Assembly (NCBI RefSeq): GCF_009017255.1
Contig: NZ_WBZB01000017.1
Span: 26,902-90,901 of the forward strand
Direction: 5' to 3'
DNA from: Alkaliphilus serpentinus
Lineage (GTDB): Bacteria > Bacillota > Clostridia > Peptostreptococcales > Natronincolaceae
Length of the DNA: 64,000 nucleotides
Under the pieces are notes generated by a model that ran no database searches, was not told the origin of the DNA, and saw only the letters and a program-made list of their open reading frames with translations. Made by a program: the position numbers and the translations under genes. Positions 16,706-34,665 of this stretch are shown here, piece after piece. Each line of letters starts with the position of its first letter. Position 1 is the stretch's first letter.

Positions 16706-17611
16706 ATGAAAGAAAAACAATATGTATTAGCTGTGCCAAACTTCAGTGACGGAAGAAGAAAAGAGGTTATAGAAGCTGTGGTTGAGCCCTTTAGAAATGC
16801 TGAGGGAGTTACTCTAGTTAGCTATGAACCAGAGCATGATTTCAACAGAACAGTAGTTACCGTGATCGGTGAGCCAGAGCCTTTAAAAGAAGCATTGCTA
16901 CAAATGGCAGGCAAGTGCTATGAATTAATCAACATGGAGGAGCAAGAAGGAAGTCATCCGAGGATTGGTGCCCATGATACAATTCCGCTATTCCCCTTCA
17001 AAAACATCACCCTTGAAGAGTGTACTGCCTTGGCTGAAGAAATTGGAAAAGAAGTTTATGCAAGATACCAAGTTCCAGTATATTTCTCAGGACAAAATGC
17101 TCGAAATGAAGATAGAAAGGCTTTATCTTTCATTAGAAAGGGTCAATATGAAGGGTTAAAAAAGGTAGCCCATACCGATGAAAGAAAACCGGATATAGGA
17201 CCAGCTGCCCTTCACCCAACAGCAGGTGCAACTATTGTTAGTGCAGATAGTGAAGGTTTAACAGCTTATAATGTTTTCTTAGCCACAGAAGATTTAAATA
17301 TTGCTAAAGCCATTGCTAAAGGAGTTAGAGGACCAAGTGGTGGATTCTCAACAATCAGAGCAGTGGGAATCAAGTTCCCAGAGAGATCTGGTGTGGTTGT
17401 ATCAATGAATATGTTTGACTGTGGAGCAACTCCTTTATATAGAGCCTTTAATTTTGTGAAACAAGAAGCAGCAAGATATGGGGTTATTGTAACAGGGTCA
17501 GAAATTGTTGGGCCAATAAAACTGGACTATGTCTTGAATTCTTTTGAATATTACTTAGGCTTAGAGAACTTCAGAAAAGATCAAATTCTTGAAACACACC
17601 TAATGAAATAA
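16706..17611 (+). CDS. ftcD: Formiminotransferase (formiminoglycine/glutamate formimidoyltransferase)
   Basis: 301 residues, the length of the stand-alone formiminotransferase part of FTCD, without a cyclodeaminase domain. It moves a formimino group to tetrahydrofolate. Family blocks: VPNFSDGRR at the N-terminus, GSHPRIGAHDTIPLFP (about 85-100, active-site His region), ARNEDRKALSFIRKGQYEGL and GPAALHPTAGATIVSA. In histidine breakdown the donor is formiminoglutamate, but no hut genes are present. In purine-fermenting clostridia the last step is formiminoglycine plus THF to glycine plus formimino-THF, which fits this locus. First gene of the microcompartment run; GGAGG upstream of ATG 16706. 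Confidence 0.93.
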   Translation: MKEKQYVLAVPNFSDGRRKEVIEAVVEPFRNAEGVTLVSYEPEHDFNRTVVTVIGEPEPLKEALLQMAGKCYELINMEEQEGSHPRIGAHDTIPLFPFKNITLEECTALAEEIGKEVYARYQVPVYFSGQNARNEDRKALSFIRKGQYEGLKKVAHTDERKPDIGPAALHPTAGATIVSADSEGLTAYNVFLATEDLNIAKAIAKGVRGPSGGFSTIRAVGIKFPERSGVVVSMNMFDCGATPLYRAFNFVKQEAARYGVIVTGSEIVGPIKLDYVLNSFEYYLGLENFRKDQILETHLMK

Positions 17612-17671
17612 ATAATAGTTTTTTTATATAACTAATATATCAATCAAAATTAATTAAAGGGGGACAAATTT

Positions 17672-19087
17672 ATGAAGTATGATGTTGTTTTAAAAAATGC
17701 TAGAATTCCTCAGGGAAATGAAACTGTAGTAACACATATTCTGGTAAAGGATGAAAAAATCGCAGGTTTTGTTACTGACTTAGAAGGTATAGAATATGGA
17801 AGAGAAATCGATGCAGAGGGACATTTAACCCTTCCAGGCTGCTTTGACTCTCATACCCACTTTATGGATCCTGGCTTTACCCATAGAGAAACCTTCTTAA
17901 CAGGATCATCCTCTGCTGCAGCTGGTGGATTAACCATGATTATGGATATGCCCTGCTGCTCAAAGCCTTCAGTAAGAGGTGTAGAAGAGCTAGAGCACAA
18001 GCTGAATGCCATTAAGGATCAAGCGGTTATTGACTATGCTATGTGGGGTGGAGTAACTGGCGAAGACATTAGAGCTGGTAAGAAGCAAATTGTAAAAGAA
18101 CAAGCTGATTACGGTGTATGCGCCTTTAAAGTTTATATGACTCCTTCAGTACCTACCTATGAAAGGGTAACGGATCCTGAAATGCTTGAAGCCTTTAGAT
18201 GGGTTGCAGAAACTGGAGTTCCAGTAGGAATCCATGCTGAAAACTTTGCGATGTGCGATTATTTTGTGAAGAAGTTCCAAAAGGAAGGTAGAACCGATGG
18301 TCCAGCTTGGGCAGAAGCAAGATGCGTAGAAGCTGAGCAGGCAGCCATTGAACTAGGAATTAACTTTGCTGAATCTACTGGTGCAAGACTTCACATTGTT
18401 CATATGAGTGCAGGAGTTGGTGCAAGATTGATAGGAGCTGCTAAAAAGAGGGGATTAAGTGTTACATCAGAAACCTGCCCTCACTATTTAATGCTTAACT
18501 ATCAAGATGCAATGACCGAGCATAGACAATTTGCAAAAATCGCACCACCTTTAAGAACTAAGAAGGATAATGAAGAGCTTTGGGAAGGGTTAAGGAATGG
18601 AAGCGTAGACTTCATGGCTACAGACCACGCTCCATATGAAATTGCAACTGAGAAGGAAGGTCCAGGAATGGATATATGGTCAGCCTTCCCAGGTATCCCA
18701 GGTGTTGAAACTTTAGTTCCGATAGTAGTTAGTGAAGGGTATAACAAGGGAAGATTATCCTTAAGCAGACTTGTTGAAGTGCTTAGTACAGCACCTGCAA
18801 GACAATATGGTTTATATCCTAAAAAGGGTGCCACTATGATCGGTTCTGATGCAGATTTCACCATCATTGATTTAGAAAAAGAATGGACCATCGATCAAAA
18901 GGAAACCTATTCTATGGCTAAATACAATCCATTGCACGGAATTAAGCTAAAGGGTAAGCCAGTTAAAACGATTGTACGTGGAACCTTAGTATATGACGAT
19001 AAGGAAGGTATTGTTGTTGAGCCAGGTTTTGGTCAATTTGTAAGACGTCAAAGAATAGAAAAGCTTGAAAGAACAATAACATACTAA
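17672..19087 (+). CDS. Dihydropyrimidinase/allantoinase-like amidohydrolase, candidate xanthine amidohydrolase
   Basis: 471 residues, cyclic amidohydrolase family (hydantoinase, allantoinase, dihydroorotase). All metal residues are visible: H61 and H63 (DSHTHFMDPG), carbamylated Lys candidate K153 (FKVYMTP), H188 (GIHAEN), H244 (HIVHMS) and D318 (MATDHAPYE). The family opens six- or five-membered cyclic amides. The first step of anaerobic xanthine breakdown is hydrolysis of the pyrimidine ring to 4-ureido-5-imidazolecarboxylate, so this gene is the best candidate given its neighbours. Preceded by AAAGGGGG. Allantoinase activity is the main alternative, but no allantoate-degrading genes are present. 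Confidence 0.88.
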   Translation: MKYDVVLKNARIPQGNETVVTHILVKDEKIAGFVTDLEGIEYGREIDAEGHLTLPGCFDSHTHFMDPGFTHRETFLTGSSSAAAGGLTMIMDMPCCSKPSVRGVEELEHKLNAIKDQAVIDYAMWGGVTGEDIRAGKKQIVKEQADYGVCAFKVYMTPSVPTYERVTDPEMLEAFRWVAETGVPVGIHAENFAMCDYFVKKFQKEGRTDGPAWAEARCVEAEQAAIELGINFAESTGARLHIVHMSAGVGARLIGAAKKRGLSVTSETCPHYLMLNYQDAMTEHRQFAKIAPPLRTKKDNEELWEGLRNGSVDFMATDHAPYEIATEKEGPGMDIWSAFPGIPGVETLVPIVVSEGYNKGRLSLSRLVEVLSTAPARQYGLYPKKGATMIGSDADFTIIDLEKEWTIDQKETYSMAKYNPLHGIKLKGKPVKTIVRGTLVYDDKEGIVVEPGFGQFVRRQRIEKLERTITY

Positions 19088-19118
19088 TTAGAGAACTATG
19101 AAAAATGGAGGAAAGAAA

Positions 19119-19721
19119 ATGCCAAGACACGCGATATTAGTAATAGACATGTTAAACGACTTTGTAGGAGTTAAGGCTCCATTAAGATGCCCAGGTGGAG
19201 AAGAAATCGTTGCTGATCTACAAAAGCTATTTAAATGGGTAAGAAGCAGAAATAACGACGATGTTCAATTAGTTCATATTCAAGAAGCCCATAGAAAAAA
19301 TGATGCAGACTTTAGAGTAAGACCCGTTCATGCTGTTAAGGGTTCTTGGGGTTCAGACTTCATCCCTGAGCTATATCCAGAGGGTGAAGAATATATTGTA
19401 CAAAAAAGAAGACATAGTGCCTTTGCCCACACTGACTTAGATTTATTCTTACGTGAAGAAGCAATTGATACAGTAGTTGTTACGGGTGTTTGGACAAATG
19501 TATGCGTAAGAAGCTCTGCTACCGATGCTTTAGCAAATGCATACAAGGTAATCACCTTAAGTGATGCCTGCGCTTCTAAAACGGAAGAGATGCATTTAAA
19601 TGGATTAAAGGACCTAAGTATATTCACCAAGATTATGACAGTTGATGAATATATTCAAGCTTGGGAAAAAGGTGAAGATCCATGGCTTGGCGGCGGAGAC
19701 GCTGAAAATAAAGTAGAATAG
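19119..19721 (+). CDS. Isochorismatase-like cysteine hydrolase, candidate ureido-imidazolecarboxylate amidase
   Basis: 200 residues from ATG 19119, which has GGAGG eight bases upstream; an in-frame ATG at 19098 lacks a site. The catalytic triad of the family is visible as D10 (VIDMLNDF), K96 (VQKRRHSAF) and C129 (GVWTNVCVRSSATDA). Relatives include N-carbamoylsarcosine amidase and the ureidoacrylate amidohydrolase RutB, which remove a carbamoyl group as CO2 and ammonia. Placed right after the ring-opening enzyme, it would convert 4-ureido-5-imidazolecarboxylate to the amino acid form. The C-terminal tail (WLGGGDAENKVE) is polar and looks flexible. Confidence 0.88.
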   Translation: MPRHAILVIDMLNDFVGVKAPLRCPGGEEIVADLQKLFKWVRSRNNDDVQLVHIQEAHRKNDADFRVRPVHAVKGSWGSDFIPELYPEGEEYIVQKRRHSAFAHTDLDLFLREEAIDTVVVTGVWTNVCVRSSATDALANAYKVITLSDACASKTEEMHLNGLKDLSIFTKIMTVDEYIQAWEKGEDPWLGGGDAENKVE

Positions 19722-19728
19722 TTTTAGC

Positions 19729-19764
19729 TAGAACCTGCCTATCCAATAAGATAGGCGGGTTCTA
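19729..19764 (+). promoter_or_regulatory. Strong intercistronic hairpin
   Basis: TAGAACCTGCCTATC (19729-19743) pairs over 15 positions (one G-T) with 19750-19764 around loop CAATAA. There is no T tract, so partial attenuation or mRNA processing and stabilisation is more likely than full termination. Confidence 0.55.
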
Positions 19765-19799
19765 ATGATAGTATGCCAACACTAGAAAGTGGTGAGGAG

Positions 19800-20357
19800 A
19801 TGCGGATAGTTGTAGGAATATCTGGAGGAAGCTGTGGGATTTATGGTGTGGGACTCTTAAAGGTTTTACAGGAGCTTAATATAGAAACCCATCTTGTAGT
19901 TTCTACAATGGGGGAATATGTTGTTAAGCACGAATGTGGTATGGACTTAGATGAGCTAAAAGGCCTTGCAACCCATTATCACAATAATAAAGACCTTGCT
20001 GCACCAATATCCAGTGGATCCTTTAAAACCAACGGAATGATTATTATACCCTCCTCAATGAGAACCTTAGCAGCAGTAGCAAATGGTATTTCTGATAATC
20101 TACTGACAAGGGCAGCCGATGTAACGATAAAAGAGAGTAGAAGGCTTGTAATCGTCCCTCGGGAGACACCATTAAGCGTAATTCATTTAGAAAACATGCT
20201 AAAGCTCGCTAAGATGGGGGTTAGGATAATGCCAGCAGCACCAGGCTTTTACCATCAACCAGAAACCATTGAAGAGATTGTAAGCATTATAGTTGGACGA
20301 GCCCTAGACCAACTGGATATAGAGCATAATTTACTAAAAAGATGGGGCGGAGTTTAA
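19800..20357 (+). CDS. UbiX-like flavin prenyltransferase
   Basis: 185 residues from ATG 19800, the normal UbiX length; the in-frame ATG at 19773 would add nine poorly conserved residues, while MRIVVGISGG is the standard UbiX opening. UbiX enzymes join dimethylallyl phosphate to FMN to make prenyl-FMN, the cofactor of UbiD decarboxylases. Seen: GISGGSCGIYG (usually GxSGASG) and the C-terminal PRETPLSVIHLENMLKL with RIMPAAPGFYH, the conserved phosphate and prenyl-site region. It is followed by a UbiD gene, so the pair very likely works together. Confidence 0.92.
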   Translation: MRIVVGISGGSCGIYGVGLLKVLQELNIETHLVVSTMGEYVVKHECGMDLDELKGLATHYHNNKDLAAPISSGSFKTNGMIIIPSSMRTLAAVANGISDNLLTRAADVTIKESRRLVIVPRETPLSVIHLENMLKLAKMGVRIMPAAPGFYHQPETIEEIVSIIVGRALDQLDIEHNLLKRWGGV

Positions 20358-20360
20358 AAC

Positions 20361-20390
20361 GCACAACGGGGACGGTTCTTATTGGGCAAT
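20361..20390. repeat. REP-like hairpin repeat, copy 1
   Basis: Thirty bases starting GCACAACGGGGACGG and ending GGGCAAT. They match the repeat at 30144-30173 with one mismatch. The GGGGACGGTTCTT core is one I recall as a dispersed repeat of many Firmicutes. It lies between the UbiX and UbiD genes. Confidence 0.7.
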
Positions 20391-20448
20391 ATAAACAACT
20401 CAAAAAGCAATAATATAGGTATAATTAAGAATTAAGAATATAAGACCG

Positions 20449-20530: not shown

Positions 20531-21886
20531 ATGGAAAGACAAATGCTGAGGGCTGCTTTAGATAAGTTAAAAAGAAAGGGCGTACTTCTAGAATGTAATA
20601 AGGAAGTAGACCCAAAGTTTGAGCTAGGAGCAGTCTTAAAACACTTTAGTAACGAGGTACCAATCCTATTCAAAAAGGTTAAAGGTAGTAAAATACCGGT
20701 TGTTGGGGCTATGTTTGGTGAAAGAAAAATCTATTATGATATGCTGGGAATCACCCATGAGGAAAGAATCTTTAAAATGATGGATGCTATAGCCAATCCA
20801 AAGCCAACAAAGCTATTGACAAAGGGCCCAGTAATGGAGAACATCATTACAAAAAATATCGATTTGCCTAAAATGTTTCCGATTCCAACCTTCCATGAAG
20901 AAGATTCTTCAAGCTACATAACAGCTGGCCTTGTAGTGATAAAGGATCCAGAAACCGGTCAAAGACATGTGTCTGTTAGAAGGCTTCAGATTAATGGCGG
21001 AAATGAAATGAGCGTACTGGTGGCATCGCCCCTTGCAAACAAGCAATATTTAGAGATGGAAAAGTTAAACAAACCACTGGAGATTGCTGTCGTTTTAGGG
21101 TATGATTATAGTATATTGTTAGCGTCTCAAATAAGCAGTGAAACCTATGGTGTAGATAAATATGAAGTGGATAGCGCCCTGCGGGGAGAACCATTGGAGC
21201 TTGTTAAGTGTCATAGCATAGATTTAGAGGTTCCAGCCCACGCAGAAATTGTATTTGAAGGTATTATGCCTCCCCATCGACGAGTTACTGAAGGCCCCTT
21301 TGGGGAGTTAATGGGATACTACGGCAATGTTGGTCCCCATCCAGTTATGGAGGTTAAAGCCATCATGCACCGTAACAACCCAATCTTTCAAACTGCCTTC
21401 CCTTCAAGGGAGGAGCATTTATCTAATGGGCTAATTAGAGAAATAGAGTTATACTCTGCTTTAAAGACCATGGTGGATGTAAAGGATGTCAATGTAACTG
21501 TATCTGGAGGCTGTAGATTCCATGCCTTTGCAGCTATAAACAAGCGAAATGCTGGAGATGGTAAAAGTGCCATTATAGCCGCACTAGCCAGCAGTAAGGA
21601 TGTAAAGCACGTAGTAATCGTAGATAACGATGTAGATATATTTAGTCATGATGATATGGAATGGGCAATAGCATCAAGAGTGCAGGCATCAAGAGATTTA
21701 GTGGTTATACCTGGCGCCTTAGGGTCAGGACTGGAACCATCCCATGGATTGAATGGCGTAACCGACAAAATCGGTATAGATGCTACTAAACCACTAGGTG
21801 ACGCTGGTAAAAAATTTGAAAGAGCAAAAATTCCTGGATTTGAAAAAATCGATATTGAAAAATATCTTCCAGGAATCAAATTATAG
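20531..21886 (+). CDS. UbiD-family prenyl-FMN decarboxylase, candidate aminoimidazole-carboxylate decarboxylase
   Basis: 451 residues, the typical UbiD length. These enzymes decarboxylate aromatic or alpha,beta-unsaturated acids using prenyl-FMN. Visible blocks: HVSVRRLQINGGNEM (prFMN/metal region with the active-site Arg), HAEIVFEGIMPPHRRVTEGPFGE (conserved catalytic Glu pair in EGPFGE) and VVIVDNDVDIFS near the C-terminal dimer domain. AAAGGAGGGG precedes ATG 20531. In xanthine fermentation 4-amino-5-imidazolecarboxylate is decarboxylated to 4-aminoimidazole; a UbiD/UbiX pair between the amidase and the shell genes fits that step. Substrate not shown by sequence alone. Confidence 0.92.
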   Translation: MERQMLRAALDKLKRKGVLLECNKEVDPKFELGAVLKHFSNEVPILFKKVKGSKIPVVGAMFGERKIYYDMLGITHEERIFKMMDAIANPKPTKLLTKGPVMENIITKNIDLPKMFPIPTFHEEDSSSYITAGLVVIKDPETGQRHVSVRRLQINGGNEMSVLVASPLANKQYLEMEKLNKPLEIAVVLGYDYSILLASQISSETYGVDKYEVDSALRGEPLELVKCHSIDLEVPAHAEIVFEGIMPPHRRVTEGPFGELMGYYGNVGPHPVMEVKAIMHRNNPIFQTAFPSREEHLSNGLIREIELYSALKTMVDVKDVNVTVSGGCRFHAFAAINKRNAGDGKSAIIAALASSKDVKHVVIVDNDVDIFSHDDMEWAIASRVQASRDLVVIPGALGSGLEPSHGLNGVTDKIGIDATKPLGDAGKKFERAKIPGFEKIDIEKYLPGIKL

Positions 21887-21904: not shown

Positions 21905-22171
21905 ATGAAGCAAGCCTTAGGTTTTGTTGAAACTCGAAGTCTTGTTGCAGCAATTGAAGCAGCTGATGCCATGGTTAAGTCTGCAAATGTAAGAATCGTT
22001 GAATTTAACTATGTAGGATCAGGTGTAGTGGCAGTAGTTGTAGCAGGAGAGGTTGCTGCAGTGCAAGCAGCTGTAGCAAGTGGAGCTGAATCAGCAGCTC
22101 AAGTATCAGAGGTTATTTCCACTAACGTAATTGCAAGACCCCACGATGAGGTGGACAAGCTTTTAGATTAA
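21905..22171 (+). CDS. BMC-H microcompartment shell protein (pore GSG type)
   Basis: 88 residues, one BMC domain (PduA/EutM/CcmK family) that forms flat hexamers in the shell. Signature: ALGFVETRSLVAAIEAADAM, then VGSGVVAVVVAGEVAAVQAA and the ending VIARPHDEVDKLL. The pore loop VGSG is close to the KIGSG of PduA, suggesting a narrow polar pore. It starts 18 bases after the UbiD gene, so decarboxylase and shell are translated from one message. Confidence 0.97.
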   Translation: MKQALGFVETRSLVAAIEAADAMVKSANVRIVEFNYVGSGVVAVVVAGEVAAVQAAVASGAESAAQVSEVISTNVIARPHDEVDKLLD

Positions 22172-22198: not shown

Positions 22199-22585
22199 TT
22201 GGCAAATCCATTGACAAGGGTCATAATGAATAATATTGCTGGAAAATCCATTCCCAATCATAAAGGTACCAGCAATGAAATAACTACCAGCTTAAAGGAT
22301 CATGAAGAGCAATTGTTAAAGGGCATCATTAACAAAAATAAAAGAGTTGATAATATTAGGGATAAGAGCTATTCCACCAATAGACCACAACAGGTACATT
22401 TAACTTCTCTTACAGAGCTTGCTTCTAAATCCAGCAAGAATCCAGAGATGCTAGAAGATCCAGGGAAGGAAGGATTTACTCCTCCGGTTAAAAATGACGT
22501 CATGGTGAAAAAGCACGTAATTGCAGGGAATCACGTAGACCTGCTATCCCTTGGCTCCATGGCAAAAAAAGGTTCTATAAAGTAA
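22199..22585 (+). CDS. Orphan shell-cluster protein, disordered, possible scaffold or linker
   Basis: 128 residues from TTG 22199, chosen because GGTGGTGAT (about 22186-22194) sits at normal spacing to it, as before the preceding shell gene; ATG 22184 (133 residues) has no site. No family recognised. The N-terminal ~17 residues (ANPLTRVIMNNIAGKS) could form an amphipathic helix like an encapsulation peptide. The middle is polar, rich in Lys, Asn and Ser, and likely unfolded. A second short hydrophobic stretch lies at the end (HVDLLSLGSMA). Lying between two BMC-H genes, it may tether cargo to shell or nucleate assembly. Function unproven. Confidence 0.7.
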   Translation: MANPLTRVIMNNIAGKSIPNHKGTSNEITTSLKDHEEQLLKGIINKNKRVDNIRDKSYSTNRPQQVHLTSLTELASKSSKNPEMLEDPGKEGFTPPVKNDVMVKKHVIAGNHVDLLSLGSMAKKGSIK

Positions 22586-22610: not shown

Positions 22611-22988
22611 ATGAAGGCAGCATTAGGATTAATAGAAGCCATTGGTCTAACATCAGCCGTAGCAGCTTTGGACGCAGCCAGTAAGGCCGCCGATGTTAAG
22701 CTTGTAGGTTATGAAAAGGTAATAGGGGTTGATAAGGTTGTAAGTGTTACAATTCAGATTGCAGGTGAGGTAGCAGCCGTTAAGGCCGGTGTTGAGGCTG
22801 GTGTAGCTGCAGCCAATAAAATAGGCAGAATTGTATCAAGCCATGTAATTCCAAGACCCCATGAAGAGGTTGAGATGCTTATTAAAATCTTTGAGCAAAA
22901 CTTAAAGGATAAAAAGGCTCCAGCATCAAACCCAGAGGTGGCAGAAAAACCCCAGGGTAAAACTAAAAAACAAGAAGCCAATAAATAA
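22611..22988 (+). CDS. BMC-H shell protein with charged C-terminal tail
   Basis: 125 residues: a BMC domain ([20 protein letters not shown] to [12 protein letters not shown], about residues 1-88) plus a ~35-residue Lys/Pro/Glu-rich tail that is probably disordered. The pore region reads [11 protein letters not shown], one or two residues longer than normal and without GSG, so the central pore should differ from the other two shell proteins or be blocked. Tails on BMC-H proteins can face the lumen or cytosol and bind partners. AGGAGGTG precedes ATG 22611. Confidence 0.95.
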
Positions 22989-23026: not shown

Positions 23027-23302
23027 ATGAGTCAAGCATTAGGTTTGGTAGAAACTAAAGGTTTAGTAGGAGCAGTTGAGGCAGCAGATGCAATGGTAAA
23101 AGCTGCAAATGTTACAATCGTTGGATACGAAAAAATCGGTTTTGGTTTGGTAACTGTAATGGTAAGAGGAGATGTTGGAGCAGTAAAGGCAGCAACAGAC
23201 GCTGGAGCAGAAGCAGCTAGAGCAGTAGGAGAGCTTTATTCTGTACATGTAATCCCAAGACCACACTCAGAAGTAGAAAGAGTTCTATTAAAGGGTGAAT
23301 AA
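23027..23302 (+). CDS. BMC-H shell protein (pore GFG type)
   Basis: 91 residues, very close to PduA/PduJ in pattern: [52 protein letters not shown]. The pore loop is KIGFG where PduA has KIGSG; the Phe should narrow the pore or make it hydrophobic. Likely the bulk shell tile. TAAGGAGG precedes the start. Confidence 0.97.
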
Positions 23303-24161: not shown

Positions 24162-24446
24162 ATGCATATTGGCAGAGTCATTGGAACGATAGTGGCTACG
24201 AGAAAGGATGAAAGGCTTGTAGGGAGTAAGCTAATGCTTACCCAGCCTTTAAATATTGATGAAGTGCCTGTAGGTGATCCACTAATTGCAGTAGATACCG
24301 TTGGGGCTGGAATCGGAGAATTAGTTATTTATGCTAAGGGTACAGCCGCTAGACATGCTGCAGAAAAGCTTCAATCCCCAATCGACGCAGCTATTGTAGG
24401 AATTATAGACAATATAGATGTTTATCGTGATTTAATTAAAAAATAA
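24162..24446 (+). CDS. BMC-P pentameric vertex protein (EutN/CcmL family)
   Basis: 94 residues. It forms the pentamers that close the shell vertices. Signature: MHIGRVIGTIVATRKDERLVG, then KLMLTQPL, VDTVGAGIGELVIYAKGTAAR and the DAAIVGIIDNIDV ending. It is the only BMC-P in the window. Twenty bases separate it from the next gene, the adenine-deaminase-like enzyme, placing that enzyme in the same operon. Confidence 0.97.
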   Translation: MHIGRVIGTIVATRKDERLVGSKLMLTQPLNIDEVPVGDPLIAVDTVGAGIGELVIYAKGTAARHAAEKLQSPIDAAIVGIIDNIDVYRDLIKK

Positions 24447-27898: not shown

Positions 27899-29236
27899 AT
27901 GAATAAAATATTAATTAAAAATGCACTTATAGTTACTATGAATAATAGGAGGGATATATTCAAAGGCGACATCTTAATTGAGGGAGATAGAATTAAGGAA
28001 ATGTCCCCTAAGTTAGAGATGGAGGCCGATACGGTTATAGATGCCACCGGCAAAACGGTTATACCTGGTATGATACAAACCCATATTCACTTAACCCAAA
28101 CCCTTTACAGAGGTCAAGCAGATGATCTAGAGCTTTTAGACTGGTTAAAACAGAGGGTATGGCCATTGGAGGGATCCCATACAGCAGAGTCTAATTATGT
28201 TTCTGCAAAGTTAGGAATTGCTGAGCTTATTAAGGGAGGAACAACCTCTATAATTGATATGGGGACAGTAAACCACTCTGATTCAATTTTTGAAGCCATT
28301 GAAGAAAGTGGGTTTAGAGCAATATCTGGTAAGTGTATGATGGACTACGGAATTGGTGTTCCAGACACCCTAATGGAGGATACCAATGAATCTATCAAGG
28401 AAAGTGAAAGGCTGCTGAAAAAGTGGCATGGTAAGGCAAACAACAGAATCCAATATGCTTTTGCACCAAGGTTTGTGGTATCTTGTACCGAAGAGCTTTT
28501 AGTGAAGGTAAGGGATTTGAGTAAGGAATATGGTGTGATGGTTCATACCCATGCTTCTGAAAATAGAGGAGAAATTGAATTGGTTCAAAGGGATAGAGGC
28601 ATGAGAAATGTACTATATCTCGACAAACTGGGAATGACTGGTGATCAGCTGATTCTTGCCCATTGTATCTGGTTGGATGACGAGGAAATGAAGATTTTAG
28701 CAGCAACTGGTACGAAGATTTCCCACTGTCCAAACTCTAATTTAAAGCTTGCATCAGGGATTGCAAAAATACCAGAGTTATTGGAGATGAATGCTTCTGT
28801 ATCAATTGCAGCCGATGGAGCTCCTTGCAATAATAACCTTGACATCTTTAAGGAGATGAGAAGTGCAGCCCTGATTCAAAAAGCAAGATTATTAAGCCCA
28901 ACTGTAATGCCAGCCCATAAGGTATTTGAGTTAGCAACCATCGGTGGAGCTCAAGCAATGGGAATGGAAAAGGAACTTGGAAGTCTAGAAGTAGGTAAAA
29001 AGGCAGATATAGTTATTCTAGATTTAAATAAAATCCACTGCAGTCCTTCCGATGAGGTGGATGTTGTATCGAGAATTGTTTATTCAGCTGATGCCTGTGA
29101 TGTTGACACTACAATAATTGACGGAAAAATTGTAATGAAAAATCGGGAGCTTTTAACCTTGTCGGAGAAGGAAATTATGGAGGACTCCAACAGACTGGTA
29201 AAACAGCAAATTCAATTGGCCAATGTAAAAAAATAA
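27899..29236 (+). CDS. Amidohydrolase of the guanine deaminase / ATZ-TRZ group
   Basis: 445 residues. Mononuclear metal amidohydrolase pattern: PGMIQTHIHLTQTLYRG (HxH), MVHTHASENRGE (His plus catalytic Glu), LAHCIWL (His) and AADGAPCNNN (Asp). Close in type to guanine, 8-oxoguanine and deoxyadenosine deaminases. In this context guanine to xanthine is the simplest role and would feed the dehydrogenase-independent entry. Hydrolysis of 4-imidazolone to formiminoglycine (an HutI-like reaction) is an alternative, because no separate imidazolonase is obvious. AGGAGG precedes ATG 27899. Confidence 0.85.
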   Translation: MNKILIKNALIVTMNNRRDIFKGDILIEGDRIKEMSPKLEMEADTVIDATGKTVIPGMIQTHIHLTQTLYRGQADDLELLDWLKQRVWPLEGSHTAESNYVSAKLGIAELIKGGTTSIIDMGTVNHSDSIFEAIEESGFRAISGKCMMDYGIGVPDTLMEDTNESIKESERLLKKWHGKANNRIQYAFAPRFVVSCTEELLVKVRDLSKEYGVMVHTHASENRGEIELVQRDRGMRNVLYLDKLGMTGDQLILAHCIWLDDEEMKILAATGTKISHCPNSNLKLASGIAKIPELLEMNASVSIAADGAPCNNNLDIFKEMRSAALIQKARLLSPTVMPAHKVFELATIGGAQAMGMEKELGSLEVGKKADIVILDLNKIHCSPSDEVDVVSRIVYSADACDVDTTIIDGKIVMKNRELLTLSEKEIMEDSNRLVKQQIQLANVKK

Positions 29237-29292: not shown

Positions 29293-30213
29293 ATGGATAT
29301 AAAAAACGTATTCCAAGCAAAAGATGTACCTGAGGCTATTAACTTATTAGATCAATACGGGGAAGCTGCAAAGGTTATTGCTGGAGGTACAGACATTATA
29401 ATTGCTTTAAGAGAAAATCACGTTAAGGTATCGGTTTTAGTTGACATATCATCCATTAAAGAGCTAAAGGAAATAAAGACTTCAGATGATTGGGTTGAAA
29501 TGGGGGCGGCTGTTACCTTTACAGAGGTGATGGATTATTTTAAGGGTCATAAGGAATACTCAGGTTTAATTGAAGCTGCTTCATTAGTAGGATCACCCCA
29601 AATAAGAAATGCAGCTACTATTGGCGGGAATATATGTAACGCCTCACCAGCGGCCGACTTTGTACCACCTTTACTGGCTTTAGACGCAGTTCTTACAGTA
29701 GAAGGTAAAGAAGGTAAAAGAGAAGTTCGATTAGAGGATTTCCTTTTAGACAAGGGTAGGGTAGATTTAAACAAAGGAGAGCTTCTTACTACCATTAAAT
29801 TTATAAGGCTTCGGAAGGGTCAAACTGTGACCTTTAGTAAGCTAGGCTTAAGAAAGGCTCTAGCCATATCAAGACTTTCTACAGCGGTTTATTTGGAAAT
29901 AGATGATGACGAAAAGTGTGCAGAGGTGAGAGTTGCCAGTGGGTCCATCGGAAAGCATGGCCTTAGAGAAAGGGTTGCAGAAGAATCCCTAAAGGGAAAG
30001 AATTTAGATAAAGCTGCTATAGATGAAGCCTCAAAGGTTTTAAGTAACGAAGTAGAAAAAAGACTTGCTGGCCGTTCCAGCTGTGAGTTTAAAAAGGACG
30101 CAGTAGAGGGAATATTCCTGAAGGCAGTAGAAAAGGCAATGGTGCACAACGGGGACGGTTCTTATTGTGCAATGGGCACTCAATATTATCCCAGAGCAGC
30201 GGGAAAGGAATGA
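29293..30213 (+). CDS. Xanthine dehydrogenase-type FAD-binding subunit
   Basis: 306 residues, CoxM/XdhB family: the flavin subunit that passes electrons from the iron-sulfur subunit to NAD(P) or another acceptor. Seen: VIAGGTDIIIALRE (FAD loop, about 35-48), IRNAATIGGNICNASPAADF (second FAD loop, about 105-125) and LGLRKALAISRLSTAV. The last ~24 residues (from MVHNGDGSYCAMG) are encoded by a REP-like repeat at 30144-30173 and the DNA after it, so the natural C-terminus has probably been replaced. Ends seven bases before the iron-sulfur subunit gene. Confidence 0.93.
   Translation: MDIKNVFQAKDVPEAINLLDQYGEAAKVIAGGTDIIIALRENHVKVSVLVDISSIKELKEIKTSDDWVEMGAAVTFTEVMDYFKGHKEYSGLIEAASLVGSPQIRNAATIGGNICNASPAADFVPPLLALDAVLTVEGKEGKREVRLEDFLLDKGRVDLNKGELLTTIKFIRLRKGQTVTFSKLGLRKALAISRLSTAVYLEIDDDEKCAEVRVASGSIGKHGLRERVAEESLKGKNLDKAAIDEASKVLSNEVEKRLAGRSSCEFKKDAVEGIFLKAVEKAMVHNGDGSYCAMGTQYYPRAAGKE
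30144..30173. repeat. REP-like hairpin repeat, copy 2, inside coding sequence
   Basis: Thirty bases matching 20361-20390 with one mismatch; here the ends GCACAA and TTGTGC pair perfectly. It is read in frame as HNGDGSYCA near the end of the FAD subunit. Confidence 0.75.
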
Positions 30214-30220
30214 TAATAAA

Positions 30221-30697
30221 ATGAAAACCATAAATGTAAAGATCAACGGTGAAAATTACACCCGTGAAATTAACGAAGATATGAGATTACTGGATTTTAT
30301 TAGAGATGAGCTAAAGCTCTATGGTACAAAAGAAGGCTGTGGTGAAGGTGAATGTGGTGCCTGCACTGTGATAATGGATGGAGTAACAGTGAACTCTTGT
30401 ATGGTGATGGCCTTTCAAGCTAATAACAAGGAAATATTAACAATAGAAGGTATGGAGGATGAAAAGGGTCTTCATCCTATTCAACAAGCTTTTTTAGATG
30501 AAGGAGCAGTTCAATGTGGTTTTTGCATACCAGGGATGGTACTGTCAGCTAAAGCCCTCTTAGACAAAAATCCAAAGCCTTCACGAAAGGAAATTAAAGA
30601 AGGTATATCTGGAAACCTATGCAGATGTACAGGTTATAACAAAATCGTGGATAGTATCGAAAAGGCTTCCCAATATTTAGAGGGGGAGGATCAATAA
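30221..30697 (+). CDS. Xanthine dehydrogenase-type 2x[2Fe-2S] subunit
   Basis: 158 residues from ATG 30221 (AAAGGAATG upstream); upstream in-frame ATGs overlap the previous gene. It carries both clusters of the family: the plant-ferredoxin type C40, C45, C48, C60 (GCGEGECGACTV) and the helical-domain type C99, C102, C134, C136 (CGFCIPGM, NLCRCTGY). It moves electrons from molybdenum to FAD. Its stop overlaps the next start by one base (TAATG), so translation is coupled. Confidence 0.96.
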   Translation: MKTINVKINGENYTREINEDMRLLDFIRDELKLYGTKEGCGEGECGACTVIMDGVTVNSCMVMAFQANNKEILTIEGMEDEKGLHPIQQAFLDEGAVQCGFCIPGMVLSAKALLDKNPKPSRKEIKEGISGNLCRCTGYNKIVDSIEKASQYLEGEDQ

Positions 30698-31959
30698 TGA
30701 AGAAAAATCTAGAGGTTGTAGGAAAAAGCGTCATCAGAGTGGATGGATTTTCAAAGGTTACCGGCAAGGCCACCTACTCTCAGGATTTAACGATGGATAA
30801 TATGCTATGGGGAAAAACCCTAAGATCTACAAAGCCCCATGCTAACATAAAGCTGAATTTAACAAAGGCAGAGGTCATTCCTGGAGTGGTACGTATTCTA
30901 ACCTATAAGGATGTACCCCATAATCATCATGGAGTGGTTTTTAAGGACCACGAAGTTTTAAGTAGTGGAAGGGTTCGCTCAATAGGTACTCCCATTGCCT
31001 TTGTGGTGGCAGAAACCGAAAAAATTGCGGTAGAAGCAATGAAGGCAATAGAAGTGGAATATCAGGAGTTGGAGGCAGTCTTCGATCCTGTTGAAGCCAT
31101 GAAGGAGGATGCACCTAAGGTCCATGAAAATGGCAATCTTCTCTATCACTATAAGCTTAGATTGGGAGATGTAGATGCTGCCTTTAAGGAATGTGCTGTA
31201 ATTGTTGAGAATCAATACAAAACCTCAATGGTTGACCATGCTTTTTTACAGCCAGAGGCAGGTATAGCTTATTTAGAGGAGGATATGGTGGTGGTTTGTG
31301 CTGCTACTCAATACCCCCATTTTGATCAGCTTGAAATTGCTGAGGCGCTGGAAGTTCCTACAGAAAAGGTGAAGGTATTAAATCCAGCCGTTGGTGGTGC
31401 CTTTGGTGGTAGAGAAGATATTACAATGCAAATACATCTGGCATTGGCTTCAAAGCTAACGGGAAGGCCAGTAAAAACGGTTTACTCTAGAGAAGAATCC
31501 TTTGTAGCCCATAGTAAAAGACACCCAATGATTATGAGCTATAAAACCGGAGCAGATAAAAACGGTAAGCTTATAGCTATGGAGGCTAAGATTGTAGGAG
31601 ATACTGGAGCCTATGCATCATGGGCCATTAACGTTTTAAGAAAGGCAGGAGTCCACGCAACTGGGCCCTATGAAATACCCAATGTCAAGGTTGATAGCTA
31701 TGCCGTTTATACCAATAATCCCTTTGCAGGGGCCATGAGGGGCTTTGGTGCAACTCAAACACCTATTGGTCATGAGCAGCAAATGGATATGTTAGCAGAA
31801 AAGCTTAATATGAACCCTTTAGAAATAAGATTTTTAAATGCATTAAAAAAAGGCTCAAAAACTGCAACCGGTCAGATTCTAGAAGAGAGCTTCCCTTTGA
31901 AGGAATGCTTAGAGGTATTAGAAAAAGCCTTTAAAAAAGATGCAAAGGGGGTTGAATAA
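30697..31959 (+). CDS. Molybdenum hydroxylase large subunit, N-terminal half of the usual chain
   Basis: 420 residues. It covers the first part of the molybdopterin subunit of xanthine dehydrogenase-like enzymes: RVDGFSKVTGKATYSQDL opening, FLQPEAGIAYLEE, VGGAFGGRED (Mo-site loop) and AMRGFGATQTPIGHEQQMD (cofactor-contact RGFG). The chain stops where related single-chain enzymes continue; the C-terminal half is the next gene, one base downstream. The same large/medium split is known for nicotinate dehydrogenase of Eubacterium barkeri (NdhL/NdhM), a seleno-molybdenum enzyme of similar organisms. Substrate here is probably hypoxanthine or another purine, given the context. Confidence 0.9.
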   Translation: MKKNLEVVGKSVIRVDGFSKVTGKATYSQDLTMDNMLWGKTLRSTKPHANIKLNLTKAEVIPGVVRILTYKDVPHNHHGVVFKDHEVLSSGRVRSIGTPIAFVVAETEKIAVEAMKAIEVEYQELEAVFDPVEAMKEDAPKVHENGNLLYHYKLRLGDVDAAFKECAVIVENQYKTSMVDHAFLQPEAGIAYLEEDMVVVCAATQYPHFDQLEIAEALEVPTEKVKVLNPAVGGAFGGREDITMQIHLALASKLTGRPVKTVYSREESFVAHSKRHPMIMSYKTGADKNGKLIAMEAKIVGDTGAYASWAINVLRKAGVHATGPYEIPNVKVDSYAVYTNNPFAGAMRGFGATQTPIGHEQQMDMLAEKLNMNPLEIRFLNALKKGSKTATGQILEESFPLKECLEVLEKAFKKDAKGVE

Positions 31960-31960
31960 T

Positions 31961-32935
31961 ATGAAGAAACGTGGATTTGGCTACGGATGCATCTTTTATG
32001 GAACAGGTTACGGCAATGGCTTCCCCGACATATCTAGATCTATTGCTGAGCTTGATACAAAGGGGCATATTAATATTTATGTAGGAGCAACAGAAGTGGG
32101 GCAAGGGGCTAAGACAATTCTAGGACAAATAGCTGCAGAAGCCCTGGATGTACCTGTTGAAATCGTTACTTTAATCCATGAAGACACCAGCATTACCCCT
32201 GATGCAGGTACAGCTGCTGCCAGTCGACAAACCTATAATACAGGAAATGCTGTTAAGATCTCTGCTGAGGAGTTAAAGAAGGAAATCATAGTTGTTGCCA
32301 AGGGTTTATTAAATGAAGACCACCTAGAAATCAGTAATGGAGTAATTAGATCTAATACTTCTGATAAAACCCTGACGCTAAAGGACATTGCCGAAGCTTC
32401 TGGCGGAGGTTTTTTAAGAAAAGACGGGATATTTCAGGCCAACACAACAGAAATGGACCCGGAAACAGGTCAAGGGAATCCCTATTGGCCTTACACTATA
32501 AATGCCTATGCAGTTGAGGTTGAGGTAGATACAACAACTGGAATAGTAGATATCATCAGAGCTGCATGCAGTCAGGACGTTGGTAGAGCCATTAACCCTA
32601 GTCTTGTTGAAGGTCAGATAGATGGCGGTTTTGCAATGGGGTTAGGCTATGCAATCTTTGAAGATATTAATTTAGATAAAGGTAGAATAAAGCATAATCG
32701 CTTTACCAATTATTTAATTCCAACAGCTTTAGATATGCCAGAGATAGAAAAAATTATTGTAGAGGATCCTGAGTCTACAGGACCCTTCGGAGCAAAGGGA
32801 ATAGGGGAGCCTGTTATGATAGCCGCTGCACCGGCAATACTAAATGCTATATATGATGCAGTGGGTGTAAGGTTAACAGAGATTCCTGTAACTCCTGAAA
32901 AGCTTTTAAAGGCCTTAAAGAAAAGGGAGGGATAA
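31961..32935 (+). CDS. Molybdenum hydroxylase medium subunit, C-terminal half of the usual chain
   Basis: 324 residues from ATG 31961, with AAGGGGG (the end of the previous gene) as ribosome site; the in-frame ATG at 31940 lies inside the previous gene. Seen: VGATEVGQGAKTILGQIAAE (molybdopterin contacts, conserved EVGQG), ACSQDVGRAINPSLVEGQIDGG and FGAKGIGEPVMIAAAP, where the Glu of GIGEP matches the catalytic base of xanthine dehydrogenases. Its own site and start argue for a true two-gene subunit and against a sequencing frameshift. Confidence 0.9.
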   Translation: MKKRGFGYGCIFYGTGYGNGFPDISRSIAELDTKGHINIYVGATEVGQGAKTILGQIAAEALDVPVEIVTLIHEDTSITPDAGTAAASRQTYNTGNAVKISAEELKKEIIVVAKGLLNEDHLEISNGVIRSNTSDKTLTLKDIAEASGGGFLRKDGIFQANTTEMDPETGQGNPYWPYTINAYAVEVEVDTTTGIVDIIRAACSQDVGRAINPSLVEGQIDGGFAMGLGYAIFEDINLDKGRIKHNRFTNYLIPTALDMPEIEKIIVEDPESTGPFGAKGIGEPVMIAAAPAILNAIYDAVGVRLTEIPVTPEKLLKALKKREG

Positions 32936-32940
32936 ATTGT

Positions 32941-34665
32941 ATGAAGGAAGCTATAAAAAAGAGAATTGATATAGCCGCTGGAAGAGAAAAGGCAGATCTA
33001 GTATTAAAGAATGGAAGAATTATCAATGTATTTTCTCAAGAGATCATAGAGGGGGATATTGCAATACAGGATGGTGTAATAGTGGGCATAGGCAGCTACG
33101 AAGGTGAAGTCGAAGAGGAACTAAATGGAAAATTTGTTTCTCCAGGCTTAATTGATGGTCACGTTCATATTGAATCCTCAATGGTATCTCCCGGACAGTT
33201 TGCTAGAGCTATTGTTCCGAGAGGAACAACTACTATAGTTGCTGATCCCCATGAAATTGCCAATGTTTGCGGAGTTGAAGGGATTGAGTATATTATAAGG
33301 TCTAGCCAGGACCTACCATTAAATGTTTATGTTATGCTGCCCTCCTGTGTTCCAGCCACACCATTTGAAAATTCAGGAGCCGTTTTAGGGGCTAAGGAGC
33401 TGGCTCCTCTAATGGGTCATGAAAGAGTCTTAGGCTTAGGTGAGTTAATGAATTACGTAGGAGTTGCAGCAGCAGATGAAGAAATCATCAATAAAATTCT
33501 GGTGGCTGGTGATAAAATCATAGATGGTCATGGACCTAGTATAGAAGGTAAAGACCTAAATGCATACGTGGCTGCAGGGGTTAGAACAGAGCATGAATGC
33601 TCCACAGTTGAAGAAATGAAAAACCGCTTGAATCTTGGAATGTATATATTAGTAAGACAAGGATCAGCTGCTAGGGATCTAGAAACCCTGGTAAGGGGAA
33701 TTACAAAGGAAAATTCTAGAAGATGCCTCTTCTGCACAGATGATAAGCACCCTGACGATATCATTTTAGGAGGTCATATAGACAACAACCTTCGTCTAGC
33801 CGTAAAGCATGGAATTGATCCTATAACGGCAATTCAAATGGCTACAATTAATGCAGCAGAATGCTATCGCTTAAAAAATACAGGAGCTCTAGCTCCTGGA
33901 TATAAGGCAGATATTGTGATATTTGACGATTTGAAGAATTTTGAGGTATCGAAGGTTTACAAGGATGGTAAGCTGGTGGCTGATAATAAAAAAGCATTGT
34001 TCGACGTTAATCCATCGGATTATTCTAAGGTCATCAATACAGTGAACCTTAAGGAAATAACCAAGGAGGACCTACAGTTAAAGGTTACCTCCGATATTGT
34101 AAATGTAATAAAGCTTCTGCCCCACAGTATCGTAACTGAAAAGGTTGTTAGAAAGGTAGAAACAGAGAATAGCAAATTTAAATACCATAAGAGCTTAGAT
34201 ATCTTAAAGCTTGCCGTTATTGAAAGACATAAGGCAACAGGAAATATTGGCCTTGGCTTGGTGGAGGATTTCAAGCTTAAGGGTGGGGCTATTGCATCTA
34301 CCATAGCCCATGATTCTCACAACTTAATTGTTATTGGGGATAATGATGAGGATATGCTTCTGGCCATTCAAGAAGTAGAAAGAGTAGGTGGAGGAATCAC
34401 CATTTGTAGTAATGGAGAGGTTAATAGAACCTTATCTCTACCAATAGGGGGCTTAATTTCTGATGGGACAATGGAGGAGGTAAATCAGCAGCTTAATGAA
34501 ATGCTGGATATTGCCTATAACCGTCTAGGGGTAAGTACTGAAATTGATCCATTTATGACATTATCCTTCTTGGCTCTGCCAGTTATACCACAAATTAAAC
34601 TCACCGATGAAGGATTGTTTGATGTAACGGTGTTTGATTTTATTGACCTTAGTATTAAAGAGTAA
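32941..34665 (+). CDS. ade: Adenine deaminase
   Basis: 574 residues, the normal bacterial Ade length. It converts adenine to hypoxanthine and ammonia at a two-metal site. Seen: PGLIDGHVHIESSM, VADPHEIANVCG, IDGHGPSIEGKDLNAY (H197 in the conserved DGHxP), TEHECSTVEE, FCTDDKHPDD and the C-terminal TIAHDSHNLIVIG and LPIGGLISDG. It keeps the canonical residues that the paralogue at 24467 has lost. Last gene of the purine run, six bases after the molybdenum medium subunit; its product feeds the dehydrogenase. Confidence 0.95.
   Translation: MKEAIKKRIDIAAGREKADLVLKNGRIINVFSQEIIEGDIAIQDGVIVGIGSYEGEVEEELNGKFVSPGLIDGHVHIESSMVSPGQFARAIVPRGTTTIVADPHEIANVCGVEGIEYIIRSSQDLPLNVYVMLPSCVPATPFENSGAVLGAKELAPLMGHERVLGLGELMNYVGVAAADEEIINKILVAGDKIIDGHGPSIEGKDLNAYVAAGVRTEHECSTVEEMKNRLNLGMYILVRQGSAARDLETLVRGITKENSRRCLFCTDDKHPDDIILGGHIDNNLRLAVKHGIDPITAIQMATINAAECYRLKNTGALAPGYKADIVIFDDLKNFEVSKVYKDGKLVADNKKALFDVNPSDYSKVINTVNLKEITKEDLQLKVTSDIVNVIKLLPHSIVTEKVVRKVETENSKFKYHKSLDILKLAVIERHKATGNIGLGLVEDFKLKGGAIASTIAHDSHNLIVIGDNDEDMLLAIQEVERVGGGITICSNGEVNRTLSLPIGGLISDGTMEEVNQQLNEMLDIAYNRLGVSTEIDPFMTLSFLALPVIPQIKLTDEGLFDVTVFDFIDLSIKE

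Follow-up and report, generated by a model that had tools for sequence, protein, structure and literature searches.

The closest described systems to the locus reported here are the microcompartment loci catalogued as the BUF class (Axen 2014, PMC4207490), for which a xanthine pathway, "Xau", was later predicted (Ravcheev 2019, PMC6620236) and which also appear as BUF1, or XAU, in a microcompartment survey (PMC8156839). In the parts of these sources available to us, the shell protein BMC-T is listed for BUF as a description drawn from four species (Axen 2014), and the literature on the class and the pathway contains, to the same extent, no experimental demonstration of an XAU shell or of its purpose. 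For the enzymes, a 2025 paper (PMC12507026), again in its accessible part, credits Tong 2023 with identifying the xanthinase gene cluster and, with the same credit, gives xanthinase a kcat of 0.1 per second; the description of such loci as biochemically unproven in the initial annotation is thus outdated as far as the enzymes are concerned.

The locus that we describe lies in a 64,000-nucleotide stretch of Alkaliphilus serpentinus DNA (the window) and is a further case of this already catalogued XAU/BUF1 type. One BMC-P gene and three BMC-H genes are present as open frames, interleaved with the matching set of enzyme genes (ORF list, Pfam, NCBIfam), just as had first been described, and the "xanthine utilisation" type then mentioned from surveys is real, being the Xau/BUF1 of Axen 2014 and Ravcheev 2019. 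Shell genes cluster with xanthine-type hydrolases, a UbiD decarboxylase and a formimidoyltransferase, the combination that Ravcheev 2019 gives for XAU, and orthologues of the reference locus Amet_4568–4587 stand in the same order (window compared with A. metalliredigens, loci L145 and L157), apart from an extra A. metalliredigens frame between the FTCD and HydA genes (4585 by count) that is absent from the window. In shell types, enzyme families and order we therefore see no difference in kind from that reference, as far as the available parts of the three sources describe the class. The BMC-T that Axen 2014 lists for BUF has no counterpart here, as Pfam shows no tandem BMC among the frames of the locus, and the frames with two BMC matches in the same genome sit at another locus, C60; because the A. 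metalliredigens Xau reference stretch likewise shows no BMC-T, we do not treat this protein as defining for XAU. A scan of the 19 frames from 16706 to 34665 gave no match to any family of aldehyde dehydrogenases, phosphotransacylases or B12 enzymes, which bears out the earlier remark that no aldehyde-handling core is present, and the absence of alcohol dehydrogenase, aldehyde dehydrogenase and phosphotransacylase that marks XAU is seen in the Pfam scan of the window locus. An ordinary aldehyde metabolosome was rejected on the same scan, the pfam00171 core and the other core enzymes being absent from the locus. XAU represents a proposed third paradigm of microcompartments, one without any aldehyde chemistry.

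The reading that we favor, and hold to be fairly probable, is that the enzymes of this XAU/BUF1-type microcompartment ferment xanthine to glycine via 4-aminoimidazole, and that its shell encloses the decarboxylation, deamination and ring opening of aminoimidazole intermediates and is not built for the opening of xanthine; each substrate, and which enzymes lie inside the shell, we infer. The claim that the gene families fit the clostridial xanthine pathway step by step holds up, with a family match for every step (Pfam, NCBIfam) and orthologues in Gottschalkia acidurici; the main texts on that pathway, searched for a microcompartment, mention none. All genes given here are on the forward strand except that of the cyclase. 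Xanthine would be supplied by a xanthine/uracil-type permease (26393–27712; PF00860), by deaminases and by a molybdenum dehydrogenase. The deaminases are an accessory purine deaminase of the 5′-deoxyadenosine deaminase type (an amidohydrolase, 27899–29236; NF005557 above cut-off) and, as a putative feeder enzyme, adenine deaminase proper (32941–34665; TIGR01178 650.8 bits, cut-off 472.5). The xanthine dehydrogenase-type enzyme (Xdh) comes in four pieces (29293–32935), namely an FAD subunit (29293–30213; PF00941, PF03450), a 2Fe-2S subunit (30167–30697; PF01799, PF00111), and the first (30697–31959; PF01315, PF02738) and second (31940–32935; PF20256) halves of a molybdopterin subunit. Upstream lies the gene for a PucR-type purine catabolism regulator (12296–13951; PF07905, PF13556), which falls in one cluster with frames from 42 further loci (of 77) and adjoins the locus in G. 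acidurici and A. metalliredigens too; the initial annotation had overlooked it, along with the small gene at 22199–22585 and the EpiD/UbiX-like protein at 23349–24137.

Xanthine would be opened to 4-ureido-5-imidazolecarboxylate by a dihydropyrimidinase/allantoinase-like hydrolase (HydA-like, the predicted xanthinase; 17672–19087; Pfam, NCBIfam, and hydantoinase 1gkr), whose residues H61, H63, K153, H188, H244 and D318, which we take to be metal ligands, are 100% conserved in 70 aligned rows. An isochorismatase-like cysteine hydrolase (Iso, the predicted 4-ureido-5-imidazolecarboxylate amidohydrolase; 19098–19721; Pfam, NCBIfam) would then remove the carbamoyl group; among solved proteins it is very close to 3hb7, with an N-carbamoylsarcosine amidase-related protein next, and its D17, K103 and C136 are found in 100% of 68 aligned rows. 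Decarboxylation, predicted to be of 4-amino-5-imidazolecarboxylate, would fall to UbiD (20531–21886; Pfam, NCBIfam), with prenyl-FMN from the flavin prenyltransferase UbiX (19773–20357; NF004685 and TIGR00421 above cut-off). UbiD residues R151, E254, E259 and H296 are present in 100% of 83 aligned rows and are kept in the nearest solved relative by sequence, 6h6v, presumably the furandicarboxylate decarboxylase HmfF, from which the window enzyme differs in its predicted ring (imidazole) and in its partner enzymes.

The next step, deamination of 4-aminoimidazole, would be carried out by an Ade-like amidohydrolase (24467–26281; Pfam, NCBIfam) that scores barely above the TIGR01178 cut-off (477.0 versus 472.5). 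The full active-site set of adenine deaminase is not found in it: HxH, E183, H244 and D295 are kept, whereas residue 221 is Asn instead of the His found in the window's adenine deaminase, and the loop next to it is also different, the active-site roles of the compared residues being our assumption. A plain adenine deaminase was rejected on account of this Asn and the altered loop, and also because adenine is not used by C. acidurici, even though its annotation includes adenine deaminases. For 4-imidazolone, conversion to formiminoglycine is predicted for a cyclase-family metal hydrolase encoded on the reverse strand (13982–14674; PF04199), whose frame clusters with those of 56 other loci of 77, whose nearest solved relative by sequence is kynurenine formamidase and whose motif residues are mostly kept (61 aligned rows). 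This conserved gene likely supplies the missing imidazolone-opening step; the span first described, 16706–34665, leaves out this best candidate for it. The formiminotransferase FTCD (16706–17611; PF07837/PF02971; TIGR02024 above cut-off) would finally transfer the formimino group from formiminoglycine to THF.

It is informative to examine these assignments in light of their distribution. UbiD, the Ade-like enzyme and the HydA-like enzyme share one and the same set of 13 genomes out of 391 in the class; BMC-H genes adjoin UbiD in 13/13, and the PF04199 cyclase is found in 12 of these, the contig of the 13th genome ending near there. Of the 77 named loci, 76 show shell matches, L078 with its 37% UbiD being the odd one out, and so do 62 of 62 loci from the genome searches, many of which are the same places. 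One genome search gave 46 places, 16 of them without a locus, of which six were inspected (G281, G064, G164, G492, G398 and G502, the last equal to L074); another gave 26 places, and among the six that lacked a locus G337 was inspected. The comparison of gene order across genomes that had been suggested as a check shows much the same order recurring in related loci, and this, together with the co-occurrence, excludes chance adjacency of shell and enzyme genes. Among the carriers, with the gene set, is G. acidurici 9a, a classical purine fermenter whose growth is supported by xanthine and uric acid; the main text of its genome paper does not mention a microcompartment. Being cultured and sequenced, it could be used at once for electron microscopy and proteomics. 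C. cylindrosporum is not among the matches listed for a Caloramator UbiD (best 120 of 3030).

The most telling loci are those without the presumed xanthinase. Fifty-four loci have UbiD flanked by 5 kb or more on either side (those with shorter flanks were left out, as were L078 and L143, with a 37–44% UbiD and no shell). In this set the Ade-like gene is present in 54/54, at 65–89% identity, the HydA-like gene in 50, Xdh in 46 and the permease in 42. The four HydA-less loci, which sit on at least three branches of the UbiD tree, retain the cyclase, UbiX, UbiD, three BMC-H, BMC-P and the Ade-like enzyme, and within the stretches examined Xdh is absent from all four and the permease from three. 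A genome-wide HydA search in three of the four genomes found no match at E 1e-30 in two and a 39% piece only in the third; mere assembly gaps were rejected as an explanation, G502 being listed as 100% complete and having no HydA match. Neofamilia massiliensis is among the genomes with no HydA-like match. On the opposing side, L071, a metagenome bin listed without a completeness value, keeps a permease-like piece and has a UbiD of odd composition on a long branch of the tree, and L067, a draft, was seen at locus level. The cyclase, for its part, is not within the 21 kb examined at L016 and L020, both of which have HydA, nor in L073.

With the shell and the late enzymes retained, and the presumed xanthinase missing, in four loci on at least three branches, the presence of the shell appears to be tied to aminoimidazole chemistry and not to xanthine opening. 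These loci lend indirect support to the earlier suggestion of a shell for the aminoimidazole and imidazolone steps, and they suggest that the intermediates being guarded are 4-aminoimidazole and 4-imidazolone; by the same token, "dedicated to xanthine" is too narrow. They also speak against a shell around the whole pathway, with xanthinase and all later enzymes inside, whose benefit would be to concentrate a slow first enzyme. The low kcat cited above, and a HydA-like gene that is present in 50 of the 54 loci and lies close before the shell genes, would suit such a shell; the second HydA-like copy that the A. serpentinus and G. acidurici genomes each carry away from the shell locus does not, and we regard this arrangement as somewhat unlikely. 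The order of steps is affected as well. In the accessible part of Ravcheev 2019, whose assignment rests on homology reasoning, the opening of xanthine is given to the cyclase (Amet_4587), that of 4-imidazolone to the HydA-like enzyme (Amet_4584) and the deamination of 4-aminoimidazole to a DadD-type deaminase (Amet_4572) (we mapped the tags onto genes by gene order). HydA-less loci with cyclase, UbiD and Ade-like genes and without Xdh, and mostly without the permease, make sense only with HydA as an early enzyme and the cyclase as a late one, and a DadD homologue of at least 60% occurs in just 30/54 loci, as against the invariable Ade-like gene; the published order is thus quite improbable.

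It is also worth considering that some loci without xanthinase carry M20 hydrolases and AbgT or TRAP transporters, which invites the thought that the compartment serves some other imidazole or purine and not xanthine at all. Set against this are the window's own HydA-like enzyme, purine permease, Xdh, purine deaminases and PucR, and the presence of the locus in a xanthine and uric acid grower, G. acidurici; we consider the idea very improbable. A broader proposal, which retains xanthine as one substrate and which we advance tentatively, as something that may well prove wrong, is that XAU compartments are general aminoimidazole organelles, with a fixed core (UbiX, UbiD, Ade-like, mostly the cyclase, three BMC-H and BMC-P) assembled by a dedicated linker, the motif-bearing protein X, and fed by exchangeable upstream modules: xanthinase with permease, or M20 hydrolase with AbgT/TRAP transporter, the latter perhaps for amide conjugates of aminoimidazolecarboxylate.

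The shell genes surround two proteins that bear on how such a compartment might be loaded. BMC-H1 (21905–22171; PF00936) has a Gly-Ser-Gly pore, with Ser at position 39 in 100% of 82 rows; BMC-H2 (22611–22988; PF00936) has a charged C-terminal tail (tail comparison); BMC-H3 (23027–23302; PF00936) has an aromatic pore residue, position 39 being Phe in 87%, Tyr in 10% and Ser in 2% of 79 rows; and the BMC-P pentamer gene follows at 24162–24446 (PF03319). Between BMC-H3 and BMC-P lies a flavoprotein-like protein of 262 aa (23349–24137; PF02441 just below cut-off, EpiD by profile, TIGR02536 far below cut-off) with an encapsulation-peptide-like N-terminus, the helix pattern matching in 40/53 versus 4.5 shuffled. 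Cargo would be linked to the shell by this protein together with protein X, because both carry such N-termini and most core enzymes show none. That the enzymes bear no targeting peptide is nevertheless a weak claim, because the crude helix pattern is also matched by the Iso N-terminus (64/67 versus 20.6 shuffled), the UbiX C-terminus (48/75, a count without shuffle control) and, somewhat, the cyclase N-terminus (30/60 versus 20.1 shuffled). The counts for hydrophobic moment, disorder and helix pattern exclude locus L073.

Protein X, small, of low complexity and conserved in position between BMC-H1 and BMC-H2, is, judging from its sequence and setting, a candidate scaffold, possibly one that attaches enzymes to the shell. 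Its open frame runs from 22184, and the likelier start is the TTG at 22199 (gene 22199–22585), which GGTGGTGA precedes and which agrees with a database copy of 128 aa. A positional counterpart was found in 91 of 92 distinct H1–H2 intervals of related loci; from 147 oriented loci, 49 duplicate regions were dropped, as were six with fewer than two BMC-H after UbiD (L039, L066, L068, L078, L089 and L143), and the 90 left were joined by L002 and L020, missed by the script, where X is present on inspection. X is mostly low-complexity with short conserved motifs (compared with shuffles; alignment A2, 48 rows hand-picked from 89), and substitutions in it are mostly amino-acid-changing. The hydrophobic moment of its first motif is not above the best shuffle, and the copy of X in the window lies, narrowly, on the ordered side of the line used for disorder. 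No Pfam or NCBIfam family was matched and no named relative was found among database relatives; comparison with solved proteins gave two chance-level matches only (E 0.5 and 0.77) and no CsoS2-like similarity. From general background on the carboxysome linkers CsoS2 and CcmN, and as far as the available sources describe them, X shares their anatomy only (small size, mostly low complexity, a few short motifs under conservation, and a gene placed among those of the shell); no sequence relation was found, and we do not file X as a member of the CsoS2-like scaffolds. To our knowledge no dedicated scaffold of a catabolic microcompartment is known so far, and X would be the first; as an assembly hub, it would offer a small handle for loading shells. 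X might instead position the compartment in the manner of McdB, or act as an unattached encapsulation-peptide protein from which condensation starts. McdB mediates carboxysome positioning, and according to the accessible part of PMC12339742 encapsulation peptides can drive condensation, whereas no ParA/McdA-type partner was recognized by inspection of the recurrent families (clustered frames) of these loci. Such roles appear rather doubtful beside that of a cargo scaffold.

A promoter and terminator scan stayed at chance level. The accessory methyl-accepting chemotaxis protein (15032–16654; PF00015) has a good match in L002 only (65%), with 26–28% in four others. In keeping with the predicted fermentation, the A. 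serpentinus genome encodes formimino-THF cyclodeaminase, formate-THF ligase and two GrdB.

The locus in the window belongs soundly to a microcompartment class that is already catalogued. ORF, Pfam and NCBIfam checks upheld the gene placements of the initial annotation, and its statement that the families of an aldehyde core are missing agrees with a Pfam scan, in which none of them matched at this locus. The plus-strand, operon-like run opens with a formiminotransferase (FTCD), a dihydropyrimidinase/allantoinase-like hydrolase (HydA-like, the predicted xanthinase), an isochorismatase-like hydrolase (Iso-like), UbiX, UbiD, BMC-H1, a small protein denoted X, BMC-H2 and BMC-H3; it continues with a flavoprotein-like protein, BMC-P, an Ade-like protein, a permease, a DadD-type deaminase, four pieces of a molybdenum dehydrogenase (Xdh) and an adenine deaminase. 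Upstream genes encode a PucR regulator, a PF04199-family cyclase (13982-14674, minus strand) and a chemoreceptor. Tong's 2023 abstract is said to describe a prenyl-FMN decarboxylase together with four hydrolases, each from a different family, and this fits the genes here. The 'xanthine utilisation' type that the initial annotation mentioned is indeed found in published surveys: such loci from four Firmicutes species were named BUF under the heading 'A Third BMC Paradigm?' (Axen 2014, PMC4207490), xanthine utilisation (Xau) was predicted from A. metalliredigens genes (Ravcheev 2019, PMC6620236), the class was named BUF1 in a 2021 survey (PMC8156839), and XAU is among the types in a 2024 review (PMC11346464). 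A xanthinase-pathway gene cluster, credited to Tong 2023, has also been identified recently and is present in Clostridia and Bacilli; the kcat given for xanthinase is 0.1 per second (PMC12507026). What is new here is the cyclase as the candidate for the missing step, the predicted reassignment of three steps, the relatives without the xanthinase, the locus in Gottschalkia acidurici, and protein X.

By gene order, the A. metalliredigens tags correspond to the cyclase (Amet_4587, in locus L157) and to the HydA-like (4584), Iso-like (4583), UbiD (4581), Ade-like (4574) and DadD-type (4572) genes. Ravcheev 2019 (PMC6620236) assigned 4587 to xanthine opening, 4584 to imidazolone opening and 4572 to deamination; we predict instead that the HydA-like protein (4584) opens xanthine, the cyclase (4587) opens imidazolone, and the Ade-like protein (4574) carries out the deamination. 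This reassignment is argued for by occurrence among the 54 loci flanked on each side by 5 kb or more, where the Ade-like gene is present in all 54 whereas a DadD homologue at 60% or above is present in 30. The other counts are 52 for Iso-like (divergent ones included), 50 for HydA-like, 50 for the cyclase (51 if L145 is counted, where the stretch ended short of the cyclase), 46 for Xdh, 42 for the permease and 41 for FTCD. It is also argued for by the loci lacking HydA-like, which are without early genes and keep the late ones. For the HydA-like, Iso-like, UbiD and cyclase proteins, conserved residues were followed across 61 to 83 rows, with presumed roles for the individual residues. The Ade-like protein retains HxH, E183, H244 and D295 but carries Asn221 at a position occupied by His in the adenine deaminase of the window.

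In a sample of 391 genomes of the window's taxonomic class, searches with UbiD (query P0096, from G. acidurici), Ade-like and HydA-like matched the identical 13 genomes at the thresholds used, and in all 13 BMC-H matches adjoin UbiD; the cyclase was matched in 12, and in the thirteenth (G364) the contig stops shortly beyond FTCD. Among 77 loci from a scan of named genome contigs, 70 had at least four shell matches and six had one to three, namely L023, L032, L039, L066 and L069, all at contig ends, and L068, from which the BMC-H stretch is absent. The single locus with none, L078, has a 37% UbiD. Shell matches accompany all 62 loci from genome searches with UbiD, many of which duplicate the named loci; one further genome (G398) has a 44% UbiD without a shell, and among the places inspected no UbiD of at least 50% identity was seen without a shell match. 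Two clostridial-type loci sit in records labelled Calditrichales (L065) and Lutibacter (L075); these labels look doubtful, since 4320 bases of L065 are found unchanged in G155, a genome of the same class as the window, and L075 clusters with Thermotaleaceae in the UbiD tree. The window's own genome also carries a second HydA-like gene, 69% identical (L148, contig C31, 9536-10942, minus strand), and the stretch examined around it contains no shell or pathway genes.

The HydA-like gene is absent from four loci: L067 (Synergistales), L071 (Oscillospiraceae), L074 (Neofamilia massiliensis) and L144 (genome G492). All four retain the cyclase, UbiX, UbiD, BMC-H1 to BMC-H3, BMC-P and Ade-like; FTCD is present in three of the stretches and absent from that of L144. 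No HydA match at E 1e-30 was found in the Neofamilia genome G502, listed as 100% complete, or in G668, the genome of L071, and G492 gave a 39% piece only; in contrast, L070 and L077 (labelled Deltaproteobacteria) have a 64% HydA elsewhere in the genome. On the UbiD tree the four rows require three changes, which well-supported branches enforce; shuffled labels equalled this result in 24 of 500 cases, and we therefore claim no clustering of these rows. In this tree L071 forms a long branch with an unusual composition and is flagged as such. Related M20 hydrolases (44-48% identity) occur in L067, L071 and L074, an AbgT transporter (64%) occurs in L067 and L074, and L144 has a TRAP transporter and a carbon-nitrogen hydrolase, along with an isochorismatase that is 70% like that of L067. 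Thus, the shell seems to accompany the aminoimidazole steps, with feeding enzymes that look interchangeable. Points against this reading are the small number of such loci (n=4), the draft status of two of the records, the permease-like piece of L071, and three loci (L016, L020 and L073) with HydA and no cyclase in the stretches examined.

Genome G408, whose UbiD is 100% identical to P0096, a protein of G. acidurici 9a, holds in order PucR, cyclase, HydA-like, Iso-like, UbiX, UbiD, BMC-H1, X, BMC-H2, BMC-H3, flavoprotein-like, BMC-P and Ade-like genes. According to the 2012 genome paper on this organism (PMC3519856), no genes could be found for converting xanthine into formiminoglycine, and the terms 'microcompartment', 'shell', 'carboxysome' and 'ethanolamine' are absent from its main text. 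It also reports that adenine is unused despite annotated adenine deaminases, which would fit an Ade-like protein with another substrate. A second HydA-like copy lies at 457455-458804 of contig C2 of G408, and the G. acidurici X (L092, 584-1192, minus strand) is missing the C-terminal motif of its relatives in L093-L096 and L098.

Protein X (22199-22585), between BMC-H1 and BMC-H2, matched no Pfam or NCBIfam family. A positional counterpart is found in 91 of the 92 distinct intervals between these two genes, the window's included (90 with a scripted ORF, among them L073 with a different protein, plus L002 and L020 by inspection). With L073 left out, its length ranges from 70 to 260 aa, and its alignment contains three conserved motifs with variable K/N/S-rich stretches between them: an N-terminal one around NPLARV(I/V)MxN(I/V)xxK, a middle one around NLxx(K/R)EExLLxx(I/L)IxK, and a third, (I/V/M)(T/S)L(D/E)(E/D)L(A/V); some longer members end in PKVSLxSIGKK. 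Four strict patterns, derived from the same data on which they were scored, matched 70, 62, 78 and 15 of 90 X proteins as compared with at most 3, 3, 9 and 1 in 200 shuffles. Of the 90, 88 carry one or more of the first three patterns (L073 and L083 carry none), and the window's own X does not match the strict third pattern. Across 15 chosen pairs, substitutions at codon positions 1, 2 and 3 numbered 276, 220 and 456, a pattern consistent with translation, but X is fast evolving; amino-acid-changing codons outnumbered silent ones in 14 pairs. By the charge-hydropathy rule 65 of 89 X proteins are disordered, versus none in nine other families of the locus, with the window's own X just on the ordered side. 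Motifs 2 and 3 have a mean amphipathicity above all 200 shuffles; motif 1 does not. A profile search returned 23 proteins, none with a Pfam domain and the named ones hypothetical or uncharacterized, and literature searches limited to open-licence papers found no earlier description of X. In L073 (Carboxydothermus islandicus, 11642-13930), the position of X holds a 324-aa protein that, judged by eye, resembles a EutL-type shell protein whose N-terminus is helical; the frame that follows BMC-H3 (195 aa) is, also by eye, EutJ-like.

An N-terminal helix pattern like that of encapsulation peptides occurs in 73 of 89 X proteins (12.2 in shuffles) and in 40 of 53 flavoprotein-like proteins (4.5 in shuffles). 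It is rarer than in shuffles in HydA, Ade-like, FTCD and UbiX, equal to them in UbiD (14/82 vs 13.7) and somewhat above them in the cyclase (30/60 vs 20.1); Iso also lies above (64/67), this match probably being its core strand. The C-terminal pattern was counted in 48 of 75 UbiX proteins, a figure without a shuffle comparison. We infer from these sequence features that X is a candidate linker or scaffold. The flavoprotein-like protein (23349-24137, 262 aa) is EpiD/UbiX-like with an encapsulation-like N-terminus. Inside the shell, it could act as a carrier of prenyl-FMN for UbiD or in the maturation of this cofactor, though it has a weak match to TIGR02536, a family of ethanolamine loci.

BMC-H3 (23027-23302), the most conserved hexamer of the loci, has Phe in 87% of 79 rows, and Tyr in a further 10%, at a pore position that is Ser in BMC-H1 of the same loci. 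It is suggestive only that a flat aromatic ring there would suit a compartment for flat imidazoles. The window's own genome encodes formimino-THF cyclodeaminase and formate-THF ligase on contig C12 and has two GrdB genes, so the predicted products, glycine and formimino-THF, could be used through these enzymes. On contig C60 (14322-30052), this genome carries another microcompartment locus, with several BMC-domain frames, two of them with double BMC matches. Within the window, a 1642-aa frame (45726-50654, minus strand) has a cytidylyltransferase-like domain as its sole recognised domain, and next to it lies a protein of 417 aa whose NAD domain is of the lactate/malate dehydrogenase type.
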